From: a virus
Length of the DNA: 36,623 bases
IMG/VR virus record: IMGVR_UViG_3300042883_000343
Coordinates: 1-36,623 of that record
Reading direction: 5' to 3' (one strand)
The notes below the pieces were generated by a model. That model saw only the letters and a program-made list of their open reading frames with translations, had not been told where the DNA came from and ran no database searches. Both the position numbers and the translations under genes were made by a program. Positions 190 to 15,843 of the stretch are shown one piece after another. Numbering within the stretch: position 1 is the stretch's first letter; each line of letters starts with the position of its first letter.

Positions 190-218
190 ATTATAGCATA
201 GAAATCTTAATTTGTCAA
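190..218 (-). promoter_or_regulatory. Late promoter P2 (sigma70 consensus)
   Basis: On the minus strand the -35 is TTGACA (218-213) and the -10 is TATAAT (195-190), with a 17-nt spacer; all twelve positions are consensus. The -10 continues as TATAATTGTTATATA, identical to late promoters P1 and P3. The -35 lies inside the last codons of the portal gene. It drives the 80-aa gene, zinc-ribbon protein, scaffold and capsid. Confidence 0.85.
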
Positions 219-2165
219 GGGTTTGTTACTAGATTGCATTTGTTGCTTGACAATCTCTAAGTTTTGATCCATATCAGCTTCTTTAAGCATTAATTCAGCT
301 ATTTTTACTCTTCTATCGAACTCTGCGGATATTTTATCATCCTCATTTGGTAGGTTTGTAGAGATAGCAGTCATCAATTTAGCTTGGGTTTCTTGTGGTT
401 TAGTCTGTATATCAACCACATTTTTAGCTGCCACAGTCTTATTAACTTGAATTTCTGACATAGTTTTCTCAACTTTAGACTGTGCATCTTGCATTTGTAA
501 CTGCATAGCCATTTGTTGCATTTGTTGTTGTTGTGGGTTAGGAGCAGTTGCTTGAGCAATTTGTTGCAACAATCCATTCTTATTAGGAAGGCTAGAATTA
601 GCAATAACACCTTGGATAAGGATTGGTGTAATTGGATTATCTGAGCCAAGAGTTTTAAGTAGGTTAATGATTTGAAGTTGTTCTACTTCTCTTGCTAACA
701 TACCTAGTGTTGAGGATGGAATAAATTTCCAATCTTTAACTGGGAACTCTTCAGGATTAAACTGCATAAATCTCCAAGCTGCCTTCTCAATGAATGGGAT
801 AAGGAATTGATCTTGGAAGTTTACTAGTGTGCGTTTATTTTTCTTGAGGATGCTAGAAAGCGTTACAGATAGTTCACCACCAGCAGGTTGTGTTTGCATA
901 GCTGCTGAATCTAATGTACCTGTAGCTTGTAATAGCATTGTTTCAAATGCTTGTGCAGTTTGAATGTTTCCACCATCTGTTTGACCAAATTTAAATGGCA
1001 TTAAAATCTCAGATGGATTACCATTAGTGAGAACTGATTTGCCAGGACGGATTTCAAATTTAGATCCACGAGGTAAACGAGTAGCATCCATACCCATCAT
1101 AGGTACAGTTGTAAGTGCTAGTGAGTCAAGATGGCTACGGAGTTGAGCATCAATAGCTTTTTGCATATTGTAGCCCTTCTCTGCAACACCCCTACCCCAA
1201 AATCTATTAGGAACTGTATCATCTTGATAAGCAATGACTGGACGATCCTTCATCATGTAAGGACTGCGTTCAGCTTTTAATAGTTTGCTGTCATTACCAA
1301 TAACAATAATAGCTTCTACTAAGTCACCATACTCTTCCATGAGGTCAGATTTTTCATCTTCACCTTCACCTAAGAGGTCAACAATCTCATCTTCTTTAGC
1401 GTCTAGTAGATAAGCAGGTACTAAACCATAGTAACGAATAAGTTTAATCTTATCGTCATTGTATTCTTCATCTAAGAAGGATGCTTCTAAATCGGGTTCA
1501 GGAGTTGCATCATCTTCAATATCTGTATCTTTATAGATGCCAGCTTTAACACCTTCAGCTACTTTATGTGCTGATACAAATTCTTCAATGGCTACACCAA
1601 GTGCATCATCAATAGATGTTGCTGTTGGGTCAATAAGAAAGTTTTGTGGAGAGATTGGTTTTAATCCAACTACTACAGATTCTTTTTCTTCTACGCCAAC
1701 TGCTACAGCATCCACTTCAGGCATTTGTCTTGTTGCTGGAACAAGTTCTTTAATTTTCTTAGTTGTAATCTCACCAATACCAGTACCATAGATAGAAGCT
1801 AAAAGAGTAATATCACCAACTGCTTTACGGATTTTATTCTTTTTAAATTTCTCTTTCATGTAGGCTTTAAGATATTCTACATCACGAGGATCTGTATCCA
1901 TCATGTCATCATCAATATCAAATAGATGGTCGCCTTGACCAAACACTGCTTCTTCAATATCAGCTGTATGGTTCTCAATAGCTTGCTGTAAAGCAGGAGA
2001 TGTTATACGGCTTCTTTCTGAATCTCTTAGACGATCCTCAGCAGCCCACTCACCTCTCCAAAGTCTCTCAAATTCTTTCCAGTCATTAAGATAATTAGTA
2101 TCTCGATGGAGTCTCCAATCTTCGACATATTCCATTACCCAGTCAACTAATTTATTTTGTGCCAT
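207..2165 (-). CDS. Portal (head-tail connector) protein, T7 gp8 type
   Basis: The product has 652 aa and would form the dodecameric ring at the capsid vertex through which DNA is packaged and ejected. The N-terminus (MAQNKLVDWVMEYVEDWR) and the body with DRPVIAYQDDTVPNRFWGRG resemble portals of marine T7-like phages. It is longer than T7 gp8 (about 536 aa), partly because of a glutamine/methionine-rich, probably coiled tail from about residue 540. The start has a good AAAGGAAA Shine-Dalgarno. It directly follows the large terminase gene, as expected for a packaging block. The assignment rests on order and general resemblance. Confidence 0.85.
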   Translation of the reverse strand: MAQNKLVDWVMEYVEDWRLHRDTNYLNDWKEFERLWRGEWAAEDRLRDSERSRITSPALQQAIENHTADIEEAVFGQGDHLFDIDDDMMDTDPRDVEYLKAYMKEKFKKNKIRKAVGDITLLASIYGTGIGEITTKKIKELVPATRQMPEVDAVAVGVEEKESVVVGLKPISPQNFLIDPTATSIDDALGVAIEEFVSAHKVAEGVKAGIYKDTDIEDDATPEPDLEASFLDEEYNDDKIKLIRYYGLVPAYLLDAKEDEIVDLLGEGEDEKSDLMEEYGDLVEAIIVIGNDSKLLKAERSPYMMKDRPVIAYQDDTVPNRFWGRGVAEKGYNMQKAIDAQLRSHLDSLALTTVPMMGMDATRLPRGSKFEIRPGKSVLTNGNPSEILMPFKFGQTDGGNIQTAQAFETMLLQATGTLDSAAMQTQPAGGELSVTLSSILKKNKRTLVNFQDQFLIPFIEKAAWRFMQFNPEEFPVKDWKFIPSSTLGMLAREVEQLQIINLLKTLGSDNPITPILIQGVIANSSLPNKNGLLQQIAQATAPNPQQQQMQQMAMQLQMQDAQSKVEKTMSEIQVNKTVAAKNVVDIQTKPQETQAKLMTAISTNLPNEDDKISAEFDRRVKIAELMLKEADMDQNLEIVKQQMQSSNKPLTN

Positions 2166-2176
2166 TTGGTTTCCTT

Positions 2177-3433
2177 TTAATATCCTGATATTACATCTAT
2201 TACTTGAAATTCTTCATCTTCATAATCTTGGAAATACTCTACTACTTGAATTTGGTCTATATAGGCTAAAGCATCCACCAAGTCATCATGTAGCAAATGA
2301 TTAGGAAAATTAACCAGCTGATCGATGAACTCATTGTTCCATTCTCCCATATTAAGTGTTACCTTGCCATGTTCAAATCTACCCTGTAAAGCCCATACAA
2401 TACGATCAGTTTTCTTTTGGTTTCCATGAGTAACATCATCTATTCTAAAATAGTGGTTATTTACTCTCATTAAATCTAATAGGTAAGGAAGTGCAGCATT
2501 CTTTAAGCTACCCTTTTCAATACCTACAGCAACTGGTTCATATTTTATCACTGTCTTAATAATCTGTTCGCAAGTCTGTTTAATATCCCAGCGACCATGA
2601 ATAATATCTGCTACCCACCAACCACCTTCGTGGACTTTAACAACAGCTATTGCTGTTTCATCCAGTTTGCTATTCTTATTGCCCGACTCTTTATCGACAT
2701 TAATGAAGCCAGCCAAGTCAACTGTAATAAAATAACGACCATCACTAGGTTCATCTTCATCTATTTTTATCCAGTCTTCTTTAAAAATATCTCTACTTGC
2801 TGCTTCAAATGATGCTAAGAACTCTTGCCTAAAAGCAAAACTAGACATTGACTGTTTAGCTGCTTCAATTTCTTTTGCAGGGATTAGTGGGTTATCATAA
2901 GATGAGTAATGGAATCCAGTCCACTCTACATCTTTACCACTCTCTGCATATTTATATAATTCGTAGAAGTGATTACGCCCTTTAGGGGTTCCTATGAACA
3001 TAGCTCCGCCCTGTACATCGGCAAGGGCTGGTCGTAAGATTTGTTCCCAAACATTTGGTTTAATGTCTGCGTACTCATCGATCACTACAAATGCTAGACC
3101 TACACCCCGAAGTGTGTCAGGTCTGTCTGCACCTTTTAAGAAAATCTTTCTTCCGTTCACTAATGTAAGAATAGAAGTGTTTTCATGTGCAGCTGCAATT
3201 ACTTCATGTCCTAGTTCTTTTAGCAACCCCCAAAGAATGTCTTTAGCTTGTTGGTAGGTTGGAGCAACATAGAACACATCTTTATTCTTACTCTTTAACG
3301 CTTCAATGAGAAGCATCCATGCAGCTAATCGACTCTTACCAAAGCGTCGCCCTGCAGCTACAACTTTAAACCTTGTTTTGTCATTAAAGACTTCTAGCTG
3401 CTTTTCATGCAGCTTTACTTGTAAATTAGCCAA
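2177..3433 (-). CDS. terL: Terminase large subunit
   Basis: This 418-aa motor ATPase/nuclease pumps and cuts phage DNA. A Walker A motif (AGRRFGKSRLA, about residues 27-37) and a Walker B with catalytic Glu (AFVVIDEYA) mark the ATPase. The C-terminal RNase H-like nuclease shows acidic residues in TVDLAGF and HDDLVDALAY. The start appears to be TTG, directly after the TAA of the upstream gene with no clear Shine-Dalgarno, so translation is probably coupled. There is no in-frame ATG before the Walker A motif. Portal follows 11 bp downstream. Confidence 0.93.
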   Translation of the reverse strand: MANLQVKLHEKQLEVFNDKTRFKVVAAGRRFGKSRLAAWMLLIEALKSKNKDVFYVAPTYQQAKDILWGLLKELGHEVIAAAHENTSILTLVNGRKIFLKGADRPDTLRGVGLAFVVIDEYADIKPNVWEQILRPALADVQGGAMFIGTPKGRNHFYELYKYAESGKDVEWTGFHYSSYDNPLIPAKEIEAAKQSMSSFAFRQEFLASFEAASRDIFKEDWIKIDEDEPSDGRYFITVDLAGFINVDKESGNKNSKLDETAIAVVKVHEGGWWVADIIHGRWDIKQTCEQIIKTVIKYEPVAVGIEKGSLKNAALPYLLDLMRVNNHYFRIDDVTHGNQKKTDRIVWALQGRFEHGKVTLNMGEWNNEFIDQLVNFPNHLLHDDLVDALAYIDQIQVVEYFQDYEDEEFQVIDVISGY

Positions 3434-3769
3434 TTAGAATTGTCGTATATAACTTAAATAAAGAGCTTTGTCCTCAGGACTAAGTTGGTTAAATTGTGCT
3501 TGTATTGTATTTGGACCTGAAGAATATGAAGCATCAATGCCAGTAGGTTTAAACTCACCCATTTTCATTTGAGGAACATAATAGCCTTGACCTGAAACTC
3601 CAACATTGAGGTTAGCATTATTCATAGGAATATCTACTCCTAGTCTAGCCCCACCACCTAAACCTGAAGAACCTCCATCTGCATTGATGGATAAATCAAG
3701 GCGAGGTTTTGGAATAATAGCATAAGGGGTAAACTTATCTTGTATGCTTGTGTCTTCGTTATTGTCCAT
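3434..3769 (-). CDS. Unrecognised 111-aa protein between the terminase genes
   Basis: I do not recognise this family. The middle is glycine/asparagine-rich (GGSSGLGGGARLGVDIP) and may form beta-hairpins; the C-terminus (LSPEDKALYLSYIRQF) looks helical. I chose the ATG at 3769 over an upstream ATG at 3814 because it overlaps the end of the small terminase gene by 11 nt and has an AGGA about 10 nt upstream. Its place inside the packaging operon suggests a structural or packaging accessory role, but nothing direct shows this. Confidence 0.65.
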   Translation of the reverse strand: MDNNEDTSIQDKFTPYAIIPKPRLDLSINADGGSSGLGGGARLGVDIPMNNANLNVGVSGQGYYVPQMKMGEFKPTGIDASYSSGPNTIQAQFNQLSPEDKALYLSYIRQF

Positions 3770-4268
3770 CTTGTTCGATTTCCTCGTAGTCGGCTTCTTG
3801 TATTTCATCTTCACTAGAATGTATCACTGTCTCACCCACACCCATAATCTGAATGCTAATATGATTGCTCTTACCTTTTACTTTTTCTAAATAGTCAGCT
3901 GGTAGTATTCTATCCATAACTATTTTAAGACAAGCCATCTGATCGTCATCTGTATCATCGAGTGCTTTGAACAGCACCTTCTCAACAATGTACTTACTTT
4001 CACGACCTAGCATCTCTGCTAAGATTTCTTGTGCTCTTGCTTTTTTAGAAACTGGGAGAATGGCATCACTCTTCCGTTTCTTAATGATTTTGTTCTTTTT
4101 GTATTCGATGGGTTCTAAACCCTGTTCCATCCGTTCTTTATTCAAACGAACTAAGGCTGGTCGTCCAGCACCAGGTCTTCTACCACCACGCTTAGTTTGG
4201 GTAGGAGCTTCAGAAGTTGGCTCTGCAAGAACAACTTCGATATCTACTGGTTTGAACTCTTCTGTCAT
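3759..4268 (-). CDS. Probable terminase small subunit
   Basis: The product has 169 aa and would recognise phage DNA to start packaging. The N-terminal segment has a basic arginine/glycine stretch (KRGGRRPGAGRPA, about residues 26-38) of the AT-hook-like kind common in small terminases and DNA-binding phage proteins. A helical charged middle (KKARAQEILAEMLGRESKY) and an acidic tail follow. It is the first gene of the packaging block, after promoter P1, with an AAAGGA Shine-Dalgarno, and it precedes the large terminase. The call rests on position and the basic motif. Confidence 0.65.
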   Translation of the reverse strand: MTEEFKPVDIEVVLAEPTSEAPTQTKRGGRRPGAGRPALVRLNKERMEQGLEPIEYKKNKIIKKRKSDAILPVSKKARAQEILAEMLGRESKYIVEKVLFKALDDTDDDQMACLKIVMDRILPADYLEKVKGKSNHISIQIMGVGETVIHSSEDEIQEADYEEIEQDGQ

Positions 4269-4455: not shown

Positions 4456-4484
4456 TTGACAGAATGAAAACATTCTGCTATAAT
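4456..4484 (+). promoter_or_regulatory. Consensus promoter with palindromic spacer, reading toward and antisense to pqqA
   Basis: TTGACA (4456-4461) and TATAAT (4479-4484) are separated by exactly 17 nt. The spacer and the end of the -35 form a perfect inverted repeat, CAGAATG-AAAA-CATTCTG (4460-4477), placed where a repressor would block RNA polymerase. The transcript enters a 72-bp pure A/T tract, then the hairpins 3' of pqqA, then pqqA in antisense. It could be an early promoter with a long leader or make a short AU-rich RNA. Confidence 0.7.
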
Positions 4485-4490
4485 AAGATC

Positions 4491-4562
4491 TTTAATATAT
4501 ATAAATATATAATAATATATATAATATATAATATAATAATAATATATATATAATATAAATAA
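4491..4562. other. 72-bp pure A/T tract, candidate DNA-unwinding element
   Basis: Every base from 4491 to 4562 is A or T, mostly irregular TA/ATA/AAT units. It sits in the divergent intergenic region between the two transcription arms, the usual place for a replication start in small phages. A similar 69-bp tract lies at 10614-10682. An origin role is inference from composition and place only. Confidence 0.4.
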
Positions 4563-4564
4563 CA

Positions 4565-4587
4565 AAGCCAGCTTTAAGGGCTGGCTT
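4565..4587 (-). terminator. Hairpin terminator after pqqA
   Basis: On the minus strand AAGCCAGC and GCTGGCTT form a perfect 8-bp stem around a 7-nt loop, followed by T-rich TTTGTTATTTAT. It should end the pqqA transcript before it enters the A/T tract. In the plus direction the stem exists but the following T run is poor. Confidence 0.65.
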
Positions 4588-4600
4588 AGTTTATATCTAA

Positions 4601-4665
4601 GAACAATTACTTGTTCATTACAACAGGGCATAGCCCTGCGTGCATCAGAACAAGATTACTTGTTC
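4601..4665 (-). other. Three small hairpins in the pqqA 3' region
   Basis: Reading the minus strand, GAACAA-GTAATC-TTGTTC (4665-4648) spans the pqqA stop codon. CAGGGC-TAT-GCCCTG (4638-4624) follows, then GAACAA-GTAA-TTGTTC (4616-4601). The first and third share the 12-mer ATGAACAAGTAA, so the end of the gene looks partly duplicated. Together with the terminator this gives four hairpins in about 100 nt, which could stabilise the short mRNA. Confidence 0.6.
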
Positions 4666-4727
4666 ATGATGTACATTGTAACTTCGAAACCGAAACGCAT
4701 TTCAGTAGCAGCTGGTTTTGTCCACAT
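4656..4727 (-). CDS. pqqA: PqqA, coenzyme PQQ precursor peptide
   Basis: This 23-codon gene encodes the ribosomally made peptide from which pyrroloquinoline quinone is built. The peptide begins MWTKPA and ends [10 protein letters not shown]. It keeps the family signature: N-terminal W-x-K-P, a central R-x-G, and the E-V-T-x-Y core in which Glu15 and Tyr19 are the residues cross-linked by the radical-SAM enzyme PqqE. Length matches chromosomal PqqA (about 22-30 aa). The ATG has AGGAG 8 nt upstream, its own promoter and a terminator. No pqqB, C, D, E or F occurs in the window, so maturation would need host enzymes. PQQ serves periplasmic alcohol and glucose dehydrogenases, including methanol dehydrogenases. 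Boosting host PQQ supply during infection is inference. Confidence 0.93.
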
Positions 4728-4754
4728 GGTTATTCTCCTCGTTAAGTTTAATGT

Positions 4755-4776
4755 TATAGACTTTTCACAGTCTATA
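4755..4776 (-). promoter_or_regulatory. Perfect palindrome in the pqqA leader
   Basis: TATAGACT and AGTCTATA (8 bp each, loop of 6) lie just downstream of the pqqA -10 and about 28 nt before its ATG. It could be an operator overlapping the start site or a 5' stem-loop in the mRNA. Confidence 0.55.
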
Positions 4777-4781
4777 ATATA

Positions 4782-4810
4782 ATTATACTCCCTTTCTTAA
4801 CATTTGTCCT
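4782..4810 (-). promoter_or_regulatory. pqqA promoter
   Basis: On the minus strand AGGACA (4 of 6 to consensus, 4810-4805) is followed after exactly 17 nt by TATAAT (4787-4782). It does not share the extended -10 of the late promoters, so pqqA is probably controlled separately from late genes. Confidence 0.6.
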
Positions 4811-11839: not shown

Positions 11840-12997
11840 ATGAACACAATAATCTTAGATGTAGAAACAACAATCCATGCTAATGGAAACCCATTCTCTG
11901 AAAGGAATAAACTTTGCTATGTCGGACTTCATCATAATAATGTTTCTAATATATTTGACATTGAATATAGTGGAAATCCGTACAGGGAAAAACTTAACGC
12001 TATACAGAATGTGCTTGACAATGACGCTATTCTTGTTGGCTTTAACATTAAGTTTGACTTGCATTGGATAAGAAAATATGGAATTAGTTTTGTGGATAAG
12101 CGTATTTGGGATTGTCAGCTGGTACATTTTATACTCACTAACCAACAGAATCCCTACCCTTCACTTAATGGTGTCGCTGAGTACTATGGTTTGGGTAGTA
12201 AGCTTGATGTTGTTGCTACTGAGTATTGGGGGAATGGGATAGACACACCTGATGTCCCTAAAGACATTCTTGAAGACTATTTGAAACAAGATTTGCTTCT
12301 TACAGAGGCAGTGTTTAAACGGCAGTATGAGGAAGTAATGGCTCTACCACAAGAAAGACAACGATTGATTAGTTTGCACAATCAGGACTTACTTGTTTTA
12401 GAAGAGATGGAGTATAATGGAATTTTATTTGATGAAGATAGGAGTTTAGAACTTGGTGCCTTATTGGAAAAGGAAGTCGGATTACTTGATGAAGAATTGG
12501 CTAAAACTTTTAATATTGATGGTTTTAACTTTAATAGCAAAGATCACCTCAGTTGTCTTTTGTATGGTGGAAGGATTACTATACCCAAGAAAGAAGTTAT
12601 CGGAGTTTATAAAACTGGCGAGAGAAAAGGGCAAGTAAAAGAAGGGTGGAAAGATCACACCTATGATATGCCTAGATTAATTGAGCCACTAAAAGGGAGT
12701 GAATTAAAAAAAGATGGGTACTATAGCACAGATGAACAAACGCTTAGAAGCCTTAGGGGCACAGGAGTTTCTAAAGGAATTATTCAACTTATCCTTAAAA
12801 GGAGTGGACTTGAAAAGCGTAGAGGGACTTACTATTCAGGACTCCCTGAACTCAGAGAAAATCAAGGTTGGAGTAAAGGTTCGCTACATGGACAACTCAA
12901 CCAGTGCGTTGCTAGAACTGGTCGCCTTAGTTCCTCAAAGCCGAATCTACAAAATTTTGATGGAGAAATAAAAGAACTATTTTATTCACGATACTAG
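11840..12997 (+). CDS. DNA polymerase A, N-terminal part (exonuclease and thumb)
   Basis: This 385-aa piece carries the DEDD 3'-5' proofreading exonuclease (ILDVETT at residues 6-12, then VGFNIKFDLHWI and a C-terminal YLKQDLLLTEAVF) and the first part of the polymerase domain. It ends with QCVARTGRLSSSKPNLQNF and then FYSRY, the point just before the catalytic palm Asp. The rest of the polymerase is a separate gene 527 bp downstream. The two must assemble to give an active enzyme. The stop is clean and the next gene has its own ribosome site. Confidence 0.9.
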   Translation: MNTIILDVETTIHANGNPFSERNKLCYVGLHHNNVSNIFDIEYSGNPYREKLNAIQNVLDNDAILVGFNIKFDLHWIRKYGISFVDKRIWDCQLVHFILTNQQNPYPSLNGVAEYYGLGSKLDVVATEYWGNGIDTPDVPKDILEDYLKQDLLLTEAVFKRQYEEVMALPQERQRLISLHNQDLLVLEEMEYNGILFDEDRSLELGALLEKEVGLLDEELAKTFNIDGFNFNSKDHLSCLLYGGRITIPKKEVIGVYKTGERKGQVKEGWKDHTYDMPRLIEPLKGSELKKDGYYSTDEQTLRSLRGTGVSKGIIQLILKRSGLEKRRGTYYSGLPELRENQGWSKGSLHGQLNQCVARTGRLSSSKPNLQNFDGEIKELFYSRY

Positions 12998-13006
12998 GAG
13001 AAAATT

Positions 13007-13330
13007 ATGAAGAAGAAAGATAGGATTAAACTATGTCTTCATTATGAAGAACTTCATGATGCTGTTAATAAAATAGCCCATGCTGTAATATTTAGACCTA
13101 AAACTCAAAAAGAGTATGATGAGATTTATGATAAAATACATAGTAGGGTTGACAAAGTAAAAGAAACCATAGATGATATGTTTGATGCTTTTGAGTTAGA
13201 AGAAACTTATTTTAAAGAAGTTTGTGACGAGCATATAGGGTGCTATTCTTACCCTAACTGTGATTTAAGTCCTACAGGTTGCACTGTAATGTATGGAAGT
13301 GATGCAGAACAATTTGGACATAAAGATTAA
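13007..13330 (+). CDS. Small phage protein inserted in the polymerase split, 107 aa
   Basis: The N-terminal two-thirds is helical and charged (VDKVKETIDDMFDAFELEE). The C-terminus has clustered cysteines in GCYSYPNCDLSPTGC and ends GHKD, which may bind zinc. The Y-P-N-C-D-L-x-P-x-G-C pattern is familiar from small phage hypotheticals. It is one of two genes separating the polymerase halves. It shows no homing-endonuclease or intein motif. AGGAG precedes the start. Confidence 0.65.
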   Translation: MKKKDRIKLCLHYEELHDAVNKIAHAVIFRPKTQKEYDEIYDKIHSRVDKVKETIDDMFDAFELEETYFKEVCDEHIGCYSYPNCDLSPTGCTVMYGSDAEQFGHKD

Positions 13331-13345
13331 TTAAAGGAGAAACTT

Positions 13346-13531
13346 ATGAATGACGAAATAGACTACGACTACGATGTACCTGATATGAACCCTTCAGAAG
13401 ATGAAGCATACTTCTATCATACTCTTGGAGACTTTGAGAGTTATGTTAAAGACCTAGGGGCTAAGTATGTTTTAACAGAGATGAACGAAGATGTTAGAAA
13501 GCTTTTAGAAGAAGCGTTTAAACAATGCTAA
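13346..13531 (+). CDS. Small acidic protein inserted in the polymerase split, 61 aa
   Basis: The N-terminus is strikingly acidic and Tyr-rich (MNDEIDYDYDVPDMNPSEDE). A helical segment follows (FESYVKDLGAKYVLTEMNEDVRKLLEEAF). AAAGGAG lies upstream of the ATG. Its last codons overlap the start of the C-terminal polymerase gene by 7 nt, so the two are probably translated together. The family is not recognised; a role in joining or modulating the polymerase halves is speculation. Confidence 0.65.
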   Translation: MNDEIDYDYDVPDMNPSEDEAYFYHTLGDFESYVKDLGAKYVLTEMNEDVRKLLEEAFKQC

Positions 13532-14244
13532 TTCAGGGTGATGCCTCTGCCCTTGAGTGGCGATGTGCTGCCTTTTTAAGTAAGGATAAAGTAGCCTATG
13601 AAGAGATATGGAACAATGTCGATCAACACACTGATAATCAGAATCGCTTTGGTTTGCCTAGTCGTCTTATTGCTAAGACATTTGTGTTCAGACTTATTTA
13701 TGGAGGAAGTGCTTACTCCTACGCTAATGATCCAAACTTCGCTGAGGTAAGTAAAAGTGAAAAGTTTTGGCAAGGTGTCATTGATGAATTTTATAGCAAG
13801 TATAAAGGACTTCATAAGTGGCACATTAAACTTATGCAAGAAGCTACAACGACTAAAATGGTTAAACTTCCTACTGGTAGAATCTATCAGTTTGAACCTG
13901 AATTAAGACGAGGGGAGAAGGTTTTCCCTCGCACCACAATTCTTAACTATCCTGTTCAAGGACTTGGTGCAGACTTAATGACACTGGCAAGAGTATCTTT
14001 ATATAACCGAATGAGGAAATTAAATTATGAAAAGGCGAGACTTGTTAATACAGTTCATGATTCCATTATCATTGATTGTGATAGTGGTTTTACTGATACT
14101 TTAGCTAAGACAATGTTAGATGTATTTGAAGATGTTCCTAAGAACTTTCAGAAGATGTTTGGGACTGAGTTTGACCTCCCAATGAAGGCAGAAGTACAGG
14201 TTGGAAATAATTGGAAAGATATGGAAATTTGGGTTGACAAGTAA
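13525..14244 (+). CDS. DNA polymerase A, C-terminal part (palm and fingers)
   Basis: This 239-aa piece holds the catalytic core. Motif A is LIQGDASALEWR (catalytic Asp near residue 6), the O-helix motif B is RLIAKTFVFRLIYGG, and motif C is VNTVHDSIIID. The first residues continue directly from where the N-terminal piece ends, with only a few residues missing at the junction. No ribosome site stands out; the ATG overlaps the preceding stop, which suggests coupling. All key residues look intact, so a functional two-subunit polymerase is likely rather than a pseudogene. Confidence 0.9.
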   Translation: MLIQGDASALEWRCAAFLSKDKVAYEEIWNNVDQHTDNQNRFGLPSRLIAKTFVFRLIYGGSAYSYANDPNFAEVSKSEKFWQGVIDEFYSKYKGLHKWHIKLMQEATTTKMVKLPTGRIYQFEPELRRGEKVFPRTTILNYPVQGLGADLMTLARVSLYNRMRKLNYEKARLVNTVHDSIIIDCDSGFTDTLAKTMLDVFEDVPKNFQKMFGTEFDLPMKAEVQVGNNWKDMEIWVDK

Positions 14245-14810: not shown

Positions 14811-15476
14811 ATGGATGGCGATATTTACGCATTTAGAGTAGCTTGTACTACCGAGAATGATAACGAAGCTATCGCTGTCTATCGTGTCAATGAGATGATT
14901 GAGAATACTCTAGCTGAGGTGGAAGCATCTGAGTATAAATTATTCTTGACATCTCCTGACAATTTCAGGAAGCACATCTATCCTGAATACAAGGCTAATC
15001 GTACTGCAACCAAACCTAAGCACCTACAATTCCTTCGAGACTATCTAGTAGAGAGTTGGCAAGGAACAGTTGCTGAAAAGATGGAAGCAGACGATTATCT
15101 TGGTATCAATCAAAATGAATCTAGCATCATCTGTTCTATAGATAAAGACTTGTTGCAAGTGCCTGGAAAGCACTACAACTTCGTTAAAAAAGAATTCTAT
15201 GAAGTAGATGAAGAAACTGGATTTAGAAACTTCTACACACAACTTCTCACAGGTGATACTTCTGATAACATAAAAGGTATAGCAGGTATTGGACCAGTTA
15301 AGGCTAAGAAAGCTTTGGCTGAGTCTTTCACTGAACAAGAAATGTTCTCTGTAGTTAGAGATATGTATAAGAATGATGAATGGATGATAATGAATGGAAG
15401 ATGTTTACACATTCTCAGATCATTAGACGATGATTGGACAAATCATTTTGAAAGGTTAGCACTTGGCGACAAATAA
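14811..15476 (+). CDS. 5'-3' exonuclease, T7 gp6 / FEN type
   Basis: This 221-aa PIN/FEN nuclease would remove RNA primers and degrade host DNA. Metal-binding acidic residues appear in the N-terminal DGD, in KMEADDYLG and in CSIDKDLLQVPG. PEYKANR marks the arch, and GDTSDNIKGIAGIGPVKAKK is the helix-hairpin-helix. I chose ATG at 14811 because GGAGG lies 5 nt upstream; the ATG at 14799 overlaps the preceding stop but has no nearby ribosome site. Confidence 0.9.
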   Translation: MDGDIYAFRVACTTENDNEAIAVYRVNEMIENTLAEVEASEYKLFLTSPDNFRKHIYPEYKANRTATKPKHLQFLRDYLVESWQGTVAEKMEADDYLGINQNESSIICSIDKDLLQVPGKHYNFVKKEFYEVDEETGFRNFYTQLLTGDTSDNIKGIAGIGPVKAKKALAESFTEQEMFSVVRDMYKNDEWMIMNGRCLHILRSLDDDWTNHFERLALGDK

Positions 15477-15843
15477 GGAATGGACTGAAGGTCGCTACAA
15501 ATCATTTATAACTTCTACCCTAAGGGGTGGATTTAGAAGGTACCCCCCAAAATATGAATCTCTTAAAGAAGCTCAAGTTGGTAAGAAAATTAACGACAAA
15601 TCTCAACGCTTGGCTATGCACTATGAATGTTGTGGATGCAAAGGGCATTTCCCTGCTAAGGAGGTTCAGGTGGATCACATACTTCCTGTGGTGTGCCCTA
15701 AGAAAGGATTCGAGTCGTGGGATATATTTATTGCACGGCTTTTTTGTTCATCGGATAATTTACAAGTACTCTGCAAAAGTTGCCATGACACCAAAACCAA
15801 AGCAGAAAGGGTAAAGCGTGTTAGTAAAAGGACTAAGACCTGA
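15463..15843 (+). CDS. HNH endonuclease
   Basis: The 126-aa protein starts at TTG (15463), with AAAGG 7 nt upstream, overlapping the exonuclease gene. A zinc-binding HNH motif is clear: YECCGCKGHF, then VQVDHILPV (catalytic His), then NLQVLCKSCHDTKTKAE. The basic N-terminus (YKSFITSTLRGGFRRYPP) could bind DNA. It sits inside the replication operon and may process replication intermediates in place of T7 endonuclease I, or could be a free-standing homing nuclease. I favour the first because of gene overlap on both sides. Confidence 0.85.
   Translation: MATNKEWTEGRYKSFITSTLRGGFRRYPPKYESLKEAQVGKKINDKSQRLAMHYECCGCKGHFPAKEVQVDHILPVVCPKKGFESWDIFIARLFCSSDNLQVLCKSCHDTKTKAERVKRVSKRTKT

Follow-up and report, generated by a model that had tools for sequence, protein, structure and literature searches.

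In PQQ synthesis, PqqD presents the peptide PqqA to PqqE, a radical-SAM enzyme that links a Glu and a Tyr of the peptide. Proteolysis, PqqB and PqqC finish the cofactor, and one PqqA peptide is used per PQQ. A familiar viral parallel is cyanophage psbA, which derives from the host and sustains one of its energy pathways in infection. Unlike psbA, pqqA encodes a consumable cofactor substrate, not an enzyme or a turnover-prone subunit. Phage pqqA has already been reported and is not new as such: the Lake Baikal T4-like phage population VP_266, a freshwater case, carries pqqA together with methanol dehydrogenase (2020; PMC7678222). In a 2026 reservoir study, pqqA was placed among viral phosphorus-cycle genes (PMC13188868). 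On the host side, a single pqqB-E set with multiple pqqA genes has been documented in Methylophilaceae (PMC4109929). No phage pqq gene was found in the openly readable main texts on OM43 phages and methylophages, so that the suggested earlier notice of pqqA in marine Methylophilales phages has no match there. The breadth of pqqA across cultured methylophages, the rule of one copy without enzymes, the anatomy of its cis-elements and the apparent replacement of its allele by a host type appear unreported.

The window, that is, the whole stretch of DNA that was analysed, is an entire IMG/VR virus record of 36,623 bases. It encodes portal, large terminase, primase, DnaB-type helicase, split DNA polymerase and exonuclease, together with ribonucleotide reductase, tail genes, an M15 peptidase and a weak capsid-like match, and no tRNA or Rfam family was found in it. 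The features discussed here are as follows.

207 to 2165, minus strand: portal protein, a viral hallmark (PHROG phrog_1216, 5.6e-35)
2177 to 3433, minus strand: terminase large subunit, a viral hallmark (PHROG phrog_2, 6.4e-45), which served to collect related phages
4565 to 4587, both strands scored: predicted intrinsic terminator, AAGCCAGC CCTTAAA GCTGGCTT with a T-rich tail
4607 to 4621, minus strand: second copy of the pqqA 3′ end, GTA ATG AAC AAG TAA, reading VMNK and stop (sequence comparison)
4609 to 4654, minus strand: long hairpin right after the stop codon, partly formed from the duplicated 3′ end (RNA fold)
4656 to 4727, minus strand: pqqA (PF08042 and TIGR02107; conservation)
4735 to 4739, minus strand: Shine-Dalgarno AGGAG, 7 nt before the ATG
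4754 to 4777, minus strand: 5′-leader hairpin just after the promoter, with a stem of 7-9 bp and the loop GTGAAA (fold)
4782 to 4810, minus strand: predicted sigma-70-type promoter into pqqA, AGGACA-17 nt-TATAAT (10/12 matches)

The original prediction was of a complete pqqA ORF in this place, and this was borne out; the ORF lies on the minus strand (ATG 4727-4725, TAA 4658-4656), a point that had been omitted. It encodes a full peptide of 23 aa, within the usual length of ~22-30 aa, and the claimed AGGAG is present as a ribosome-binding site (4739-4735). The site is intergenic, as had been said, between a leftward gene at 3759-4268 and rightward genes from ~5111. Its identity as PqqA also holds, both curated models being passed above their cut-offs: PF08042 with 42.4 bits and E = 6.4e-11 (cut-off 21.1), and TIGR02107 with 40.4 bits and 1.8e-10 (cut-off 20). 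Since PF08042 gave no match in 14 control genomes, the match of the window is far above chance. The peptide has E15 and Y19, the Glu-x-x-x-Tyr pair, which we take to be the residues cross-linked by PqqE that become the PQQ skeleton. The observation of a phage pqqA in the window is thus confirmed, and the gene resides in a genuine viral genome, as the hallmark genes and its presence in cultured phage genomes indicate. No other pqq gene or PQQ enzyme was found by Pfam and PHROGs scans of most of the larger window ORFs, in agreement with the claim that pqqA stands alone, and pqqB-E were not seen next to it among the larger window ORFs scanned. Solo pqqA copies of hosts likewise have no adjoining pqqB-E, so that adjacency is common but not defining.

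Like the window, VP_266 is a Methylophilaceae virus with a phage PqqA precursor that was proposed as an auxiliary metabolic gene (AMG) for methanol oxidation. However, VP_266 is T4-like and its pqqA is one AMG beside methanol dehydrogenase, whereas in the window pqqA is the sole PQQ-related gene found, in a genome of 36.6 kb whose helicase is DnaB-like and whose polymerase is split. The window terminase has no match at ≥60% identity in the phage collection. The polymerase matches are divided over two plus-strand ORFs (11840-12997 and 13525-14244), with small ORFs at 13007-13330 and 13346-13531 between them and an HNH endonuclease-like ORF further along (15463-15843); an intron or a split gene is possible in this region.

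The gene is widespread among phages. When the 23-mer was searched by tblastn against 50,697 phage records, 12 records matched, ten of which are P19250A, Venkman, MEP301, MEP401, MEP402, four Melnitz isolates and the Manatee Spring phage MW202481. All cultured methylophage types examined carry pqqA. The PqqA of P19250A, Venkman, MEP301, MEP401/402 and Melnitz is 82-91% identical to that of the window and likewise comes in one copy, where tested, and with no pqqE, but its genome position and neighbours are different. There was no tblastn match for MEP431-434, HIM624-A and Venkman EXVC038S, which are known from NCBI taxonomy and whose records may themselves be absent; the Venkman query matched only EXVC282S. 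In the phage records inspected pqqA is unannotated, and the cultured methylophage records among them show no annotation for it on the right strand; the feature that overlaps it in the Melnitz and Manatee Spring records is an antisense 'hypothetical protein'. The other two of the 12 matches are 'Acinetobacter phage' records. 'Acinetobacter phage MD-2021a' was rejected as a carrier: in the record inspected, CAKLQF020000010.1 (L127), the match falls on a bacterial pqqBCDE operon, and this contig appears to be mislabelled as phage. The second record, under the same name, is a short contig.

In IMG/VR, a DNA pattern scan found at least 119 contigs with pqqA; among the matches listed, all have open ORFs and none has pqqB-E in the available DNA. 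With a second pattern, confined to the N-terminal part, 119/119 among the matches listed are open, encode 23 aa and keep E15 and Y19. Each of the 40 whole phage records tested has exactly one pqqA, and in none of these 40 did PqqE score above the cut-off. Five apparent two-copy contigs (L163, L100, L097, L157 and L128) were set aside, since in each of them two hmmsearch stretches had picked up the same gene. A PQQ-dependent alcohol dehydrogenase occurs in one of the 40, IMGVR_UViG_3300025120_009955 (L042; 72,356 bases), where pqqA is accompanied by a PQQ-dependent alcohol/methanol dehydrogenase in a 628-aa frame. This pairing is a second case beside that of Baikal VP_266. A divergent type of phage PqqA was seen at five loci (L018, L024, L028, L004 and L013), and its carriers may infect PQQ users other than Methylophilaceae; L024 and L028 carry phage head or portal genes, while the viral origin of L004 and L013 is unsure. 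The surroundings of the gene vary: immediate-neighbour pairs are of 104 distinct kinds in 155 loci, an upper bound because the ORFs were crudely called, and single-linkage clustering of neighbour genes was uninformative, as it chained 158 loci together.

Across 158 distinct copies among the matches listed, W2, P5, R11, G13, F14, E15, T17 and Y19 are unchanged. For the same copies, again among the matches listed, dN/dS is ~0.09 overall (Nei-Gojobori with Jukes-Cantor), a rough ratio, as are those that follow, with synonymous sites near saturation (pS about 0.5-0.74). The scans had partly selected on sequence, and dN/dS was therefore re-estimated on the unselected parts. It is 0.016 for residues 12-23 in the set selected on the N-terminus, 0.22 for residues 2-12 in the set selected on the C-terminus, and 0.09 for 15 distinct copies that were found only through a nearby related terminase. 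These values indicate purifying selection on the peptide, which appears strongest on the half that becomes PQQ. Three outcomes had been named beforehand as speaking against the gene, namely no HMM match, frameshifts and dN/dS near 1, and none of them was seen: both models match, the 119/119 IMG/VR copies among the matches listed are open, and the ratio is about 0.09.

These data bear on two other explanations. One is that pqqA is a neutral passenger, or a piece of host DNA contaminating metagenome contigs. Such cases do exist, as the bacterial pqqBCDE stretch filed under 'Acinetobacter phage MD-2021a' illustrates, but cultured phages carry pqqA in their complete genomes, no pqqB-E lies near the IMG/VR copies among the matches listed, and relatives keep the gene under strong purifying selection. 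Over the whole set, the cultured phages and this selection refute the explanation, which is hardly credible. The other is an inhibitory, decoy or regulatory action of the peptide on host PQQ synthesis, or a part as precursor of some other modified peptide that serves in signalling or exclusion. Position 4 is not K in many phage copies (T/S/Q in 70/158 among the matches listed), as such a role might predict. However, T4 and Q4 forms also occur in host genomes. E15 and Y19, the two residues that PQQ synthesis uses up, never vary, and a single conservative change (V20I) separates the window peptide from that of Methylotenera. We regard this explanation as very improbable. T/S/Q at position 4 was also rejected as a mark of phage versus host, because host copies that had not been selected at that position have T4 and Q4 too.

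In the clade of the window, pqqA forms its own predicted transcription unit. The promoter boxes lie on the minus strand at 4810-4805 (AGGACA) and 4787-4782 (TATAAT), and TATAAT is unchanged across 8 aligned sequences of the clade. The leader hairpin folds with -11.6 kcal/mol when flanking bases are included. It is convincing in the window, with equally convincing counterparts, bearing some paired changes, at L168, L170, L179 and L185, and weak ones at L169 and L173; RNAalifold on five sequences gave marginal support for the hairpin. The 3′ region of pqqA folds with -38.6 kcal/mol over 110 nt, and the terminator is retained in L168 and L170. Similar elements accompany pqqA elsewhere. Among the matches listed, an SD-like motif precedes 151/163 phage copies, and a strict perfect-stem terminator follows within 150 nt in 79/163, against 0/166 shuffled sequences that preserve base composition only. 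By the same terminator test, 91/130 host pqqA copies are positive. Next to the unit, the plus strand has at 4456-4484 a sigma-70 promoter of perfect consensus, TTGACA-17-TATAAT, its -10 box preceded by TG. It points into ~70 bases of near-pure A/T (4490-4560) and then into the terminator that it shares with pqqA, and similar A/T stretches follow pqqA in the sister phages L168, L170 and L363. This region of 4456-4560 is possibly an early promoter, an origin or a short RNA.

The gene of the window is of Methylophilaceae origin. Its coding DNA differs from three Methylotenera-type genomic pqqA genes in 2/72 bases, both in codon 20, with an identical run of 57 bases; together with the cultured methylophages that carry pqqA, this upholds the predicted link to a Methylophilaceae host. 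The sister phage L168 differs from the window in 7/72 bases of pqqA, though its terminase is 95% identical in DNA. Downstream of pqqA, the second 3′ end (4621-4607) runs into CTTAGATATAAACTAAGCC, the DNA that lies downstream of pqqA in L168. Read most simply, the resident phage allele would recently have been exchanged for one of host type, with its old 3′ end remaining as a remnant; this reading is drawn from these two distances and the leftover 3′ end in one genome. The solo copies of Methylophilaceae hosts resemble that of the window in that they encode a 23-aa peptide within one residue, often have a strong terminator and come in several per genome, but the window copy sits on a phage, and its promoter and leader are common to sister phages and not to the host. 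pqqA is present in 120/120 Methylophilaceae genomes sampled, with 1-12 copies and a median of 4, so an extra solo copy matches how these hosts themselves are built. Methylophilales LSUCC0135 (G019) has twelve in one 2.1-Mb genome, and a second genome, G138, also has twelve.

Among phages the position of pqqA shifts. It is ~0.9-2.3 kb upstream of terL in the clade of the window (84-98% terminase identity) and ~3.4 kb downstream of the terL start in a clade of 71-75% terminase identity, and it is absent in the available DNA of some terminase- or portal-related phages (~61-82% identity). Venkman and the Manatee Spring phage have in common only an 85-bp stretch around pqqA, 90.6% identical (megablast with a 10-kb query). 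That shared stretch, the several pqqA copies of hosts, and a window allele that looks replaced by a host-type copy with its 3′ end left over would suit an element that acts as DNA or RNA, a recombination anchor or integration site in which the peptide is incidental. However, synonymous sites are near saturation while the amino acids are held, which argues for selection on the peptide and not on the DNA, and this explanation is disfavoured as highly improbable.

We therefore favour, with a probability of about 0.76, the reading that phage-borne pqqA serves as an auxiliary metabolic gene and provides host PqqB-E with the consumable precursor of PQQ. A viral genome, a host-derived metabolic homologue (2/72) and selection (dN/dS ~0.09) are features of such a gene, and the predicted promoter and terminator are consistent with expression. 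From the sequence we infer that it is expressed in infection, that host PqqDE process its product and that PQQ is affected to the benefit of the phage. The phage would transcribe pqqA from its own small promoter-hairpin-terminator unit to yield the 23-aa peptide, which host PqqD and PqqE would bind, cross-linking Glu15 to Tyr19. Host PqqF/G, PqqB and PqqC would then complete PQQ, which would load the XoxF/MxaF methanol dehydrogenases of the host. Because one peptide is destroyed per PQQ, supplying the substrate alone could suffice; it would relieve a precursor bottleneck, or keep PQQ flowing as host transcription falls, with no enzyme needed. This metabolic premise finds independent support, since PqqA supply is described as rate-determining in Methylovorus sp. 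MP688, in a passage of PMC11317620 citing Ge 2015. On the other hand, M. extorquens AM1 is reported to be independent of its operon pqqA, in work that did not look at orphan copies; PqqA may thus not be limiting in all hosts. As about four host copies are already present, the gain from one more would depend on its expression level. The related phages whose available DNA lacks pqqA also count against this reading, although they may infect other hosts.

A narrower form of the supply reading, and one compatible with it, is that the phage peptide maintains PQQ rather than boosts it: it would replace host pqqA mRNA that is lost as the phage silences or breaks down the host chromosome, and PQQ would merely fail to fall. 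The unit is small, with its own predicted promoter and terminator, and most carriers have no dehydrogenase or enzyme, as expected if the enzymes of the host last and only the consumable runs out. Existing PQQ, however, could outlast a short infection. Maintenance and boosting are inseparable by sequence, and we hold maintenance tentatively, at rather less than even odds.

The provision of precursor alone may be a near-universal and repeatedly acquired strategy of phages of aquatic methylotrophs, which we judge slightly more probable than its opposite. It would extend over several families in marine and freshwater habitats; each phage would carry a single copy, host alleles would have replaced it repeatedly, and the strategy would have been overlooked because 23 codons fall below the limits of gene callers. 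In OM43, LD28/Methylopumilus and Methylotenera, all abundant aquatic methylotrophs, carbon from methanol enters through PQQ-dependent methanol dehydrogenases. If most methylotroph phages bring the used-up ingredient of PQQ, viruses would directly sustain methanol oxidation in infected cells. This raises testable questions, such as whether PqqA supply is a bottleneck and what effect a 23-codon gene has on phage yield. The gene also exemplifies tiny precursor peptides as a class of viral metabolic genes overlooked by standard gene callers and AMG surveys.
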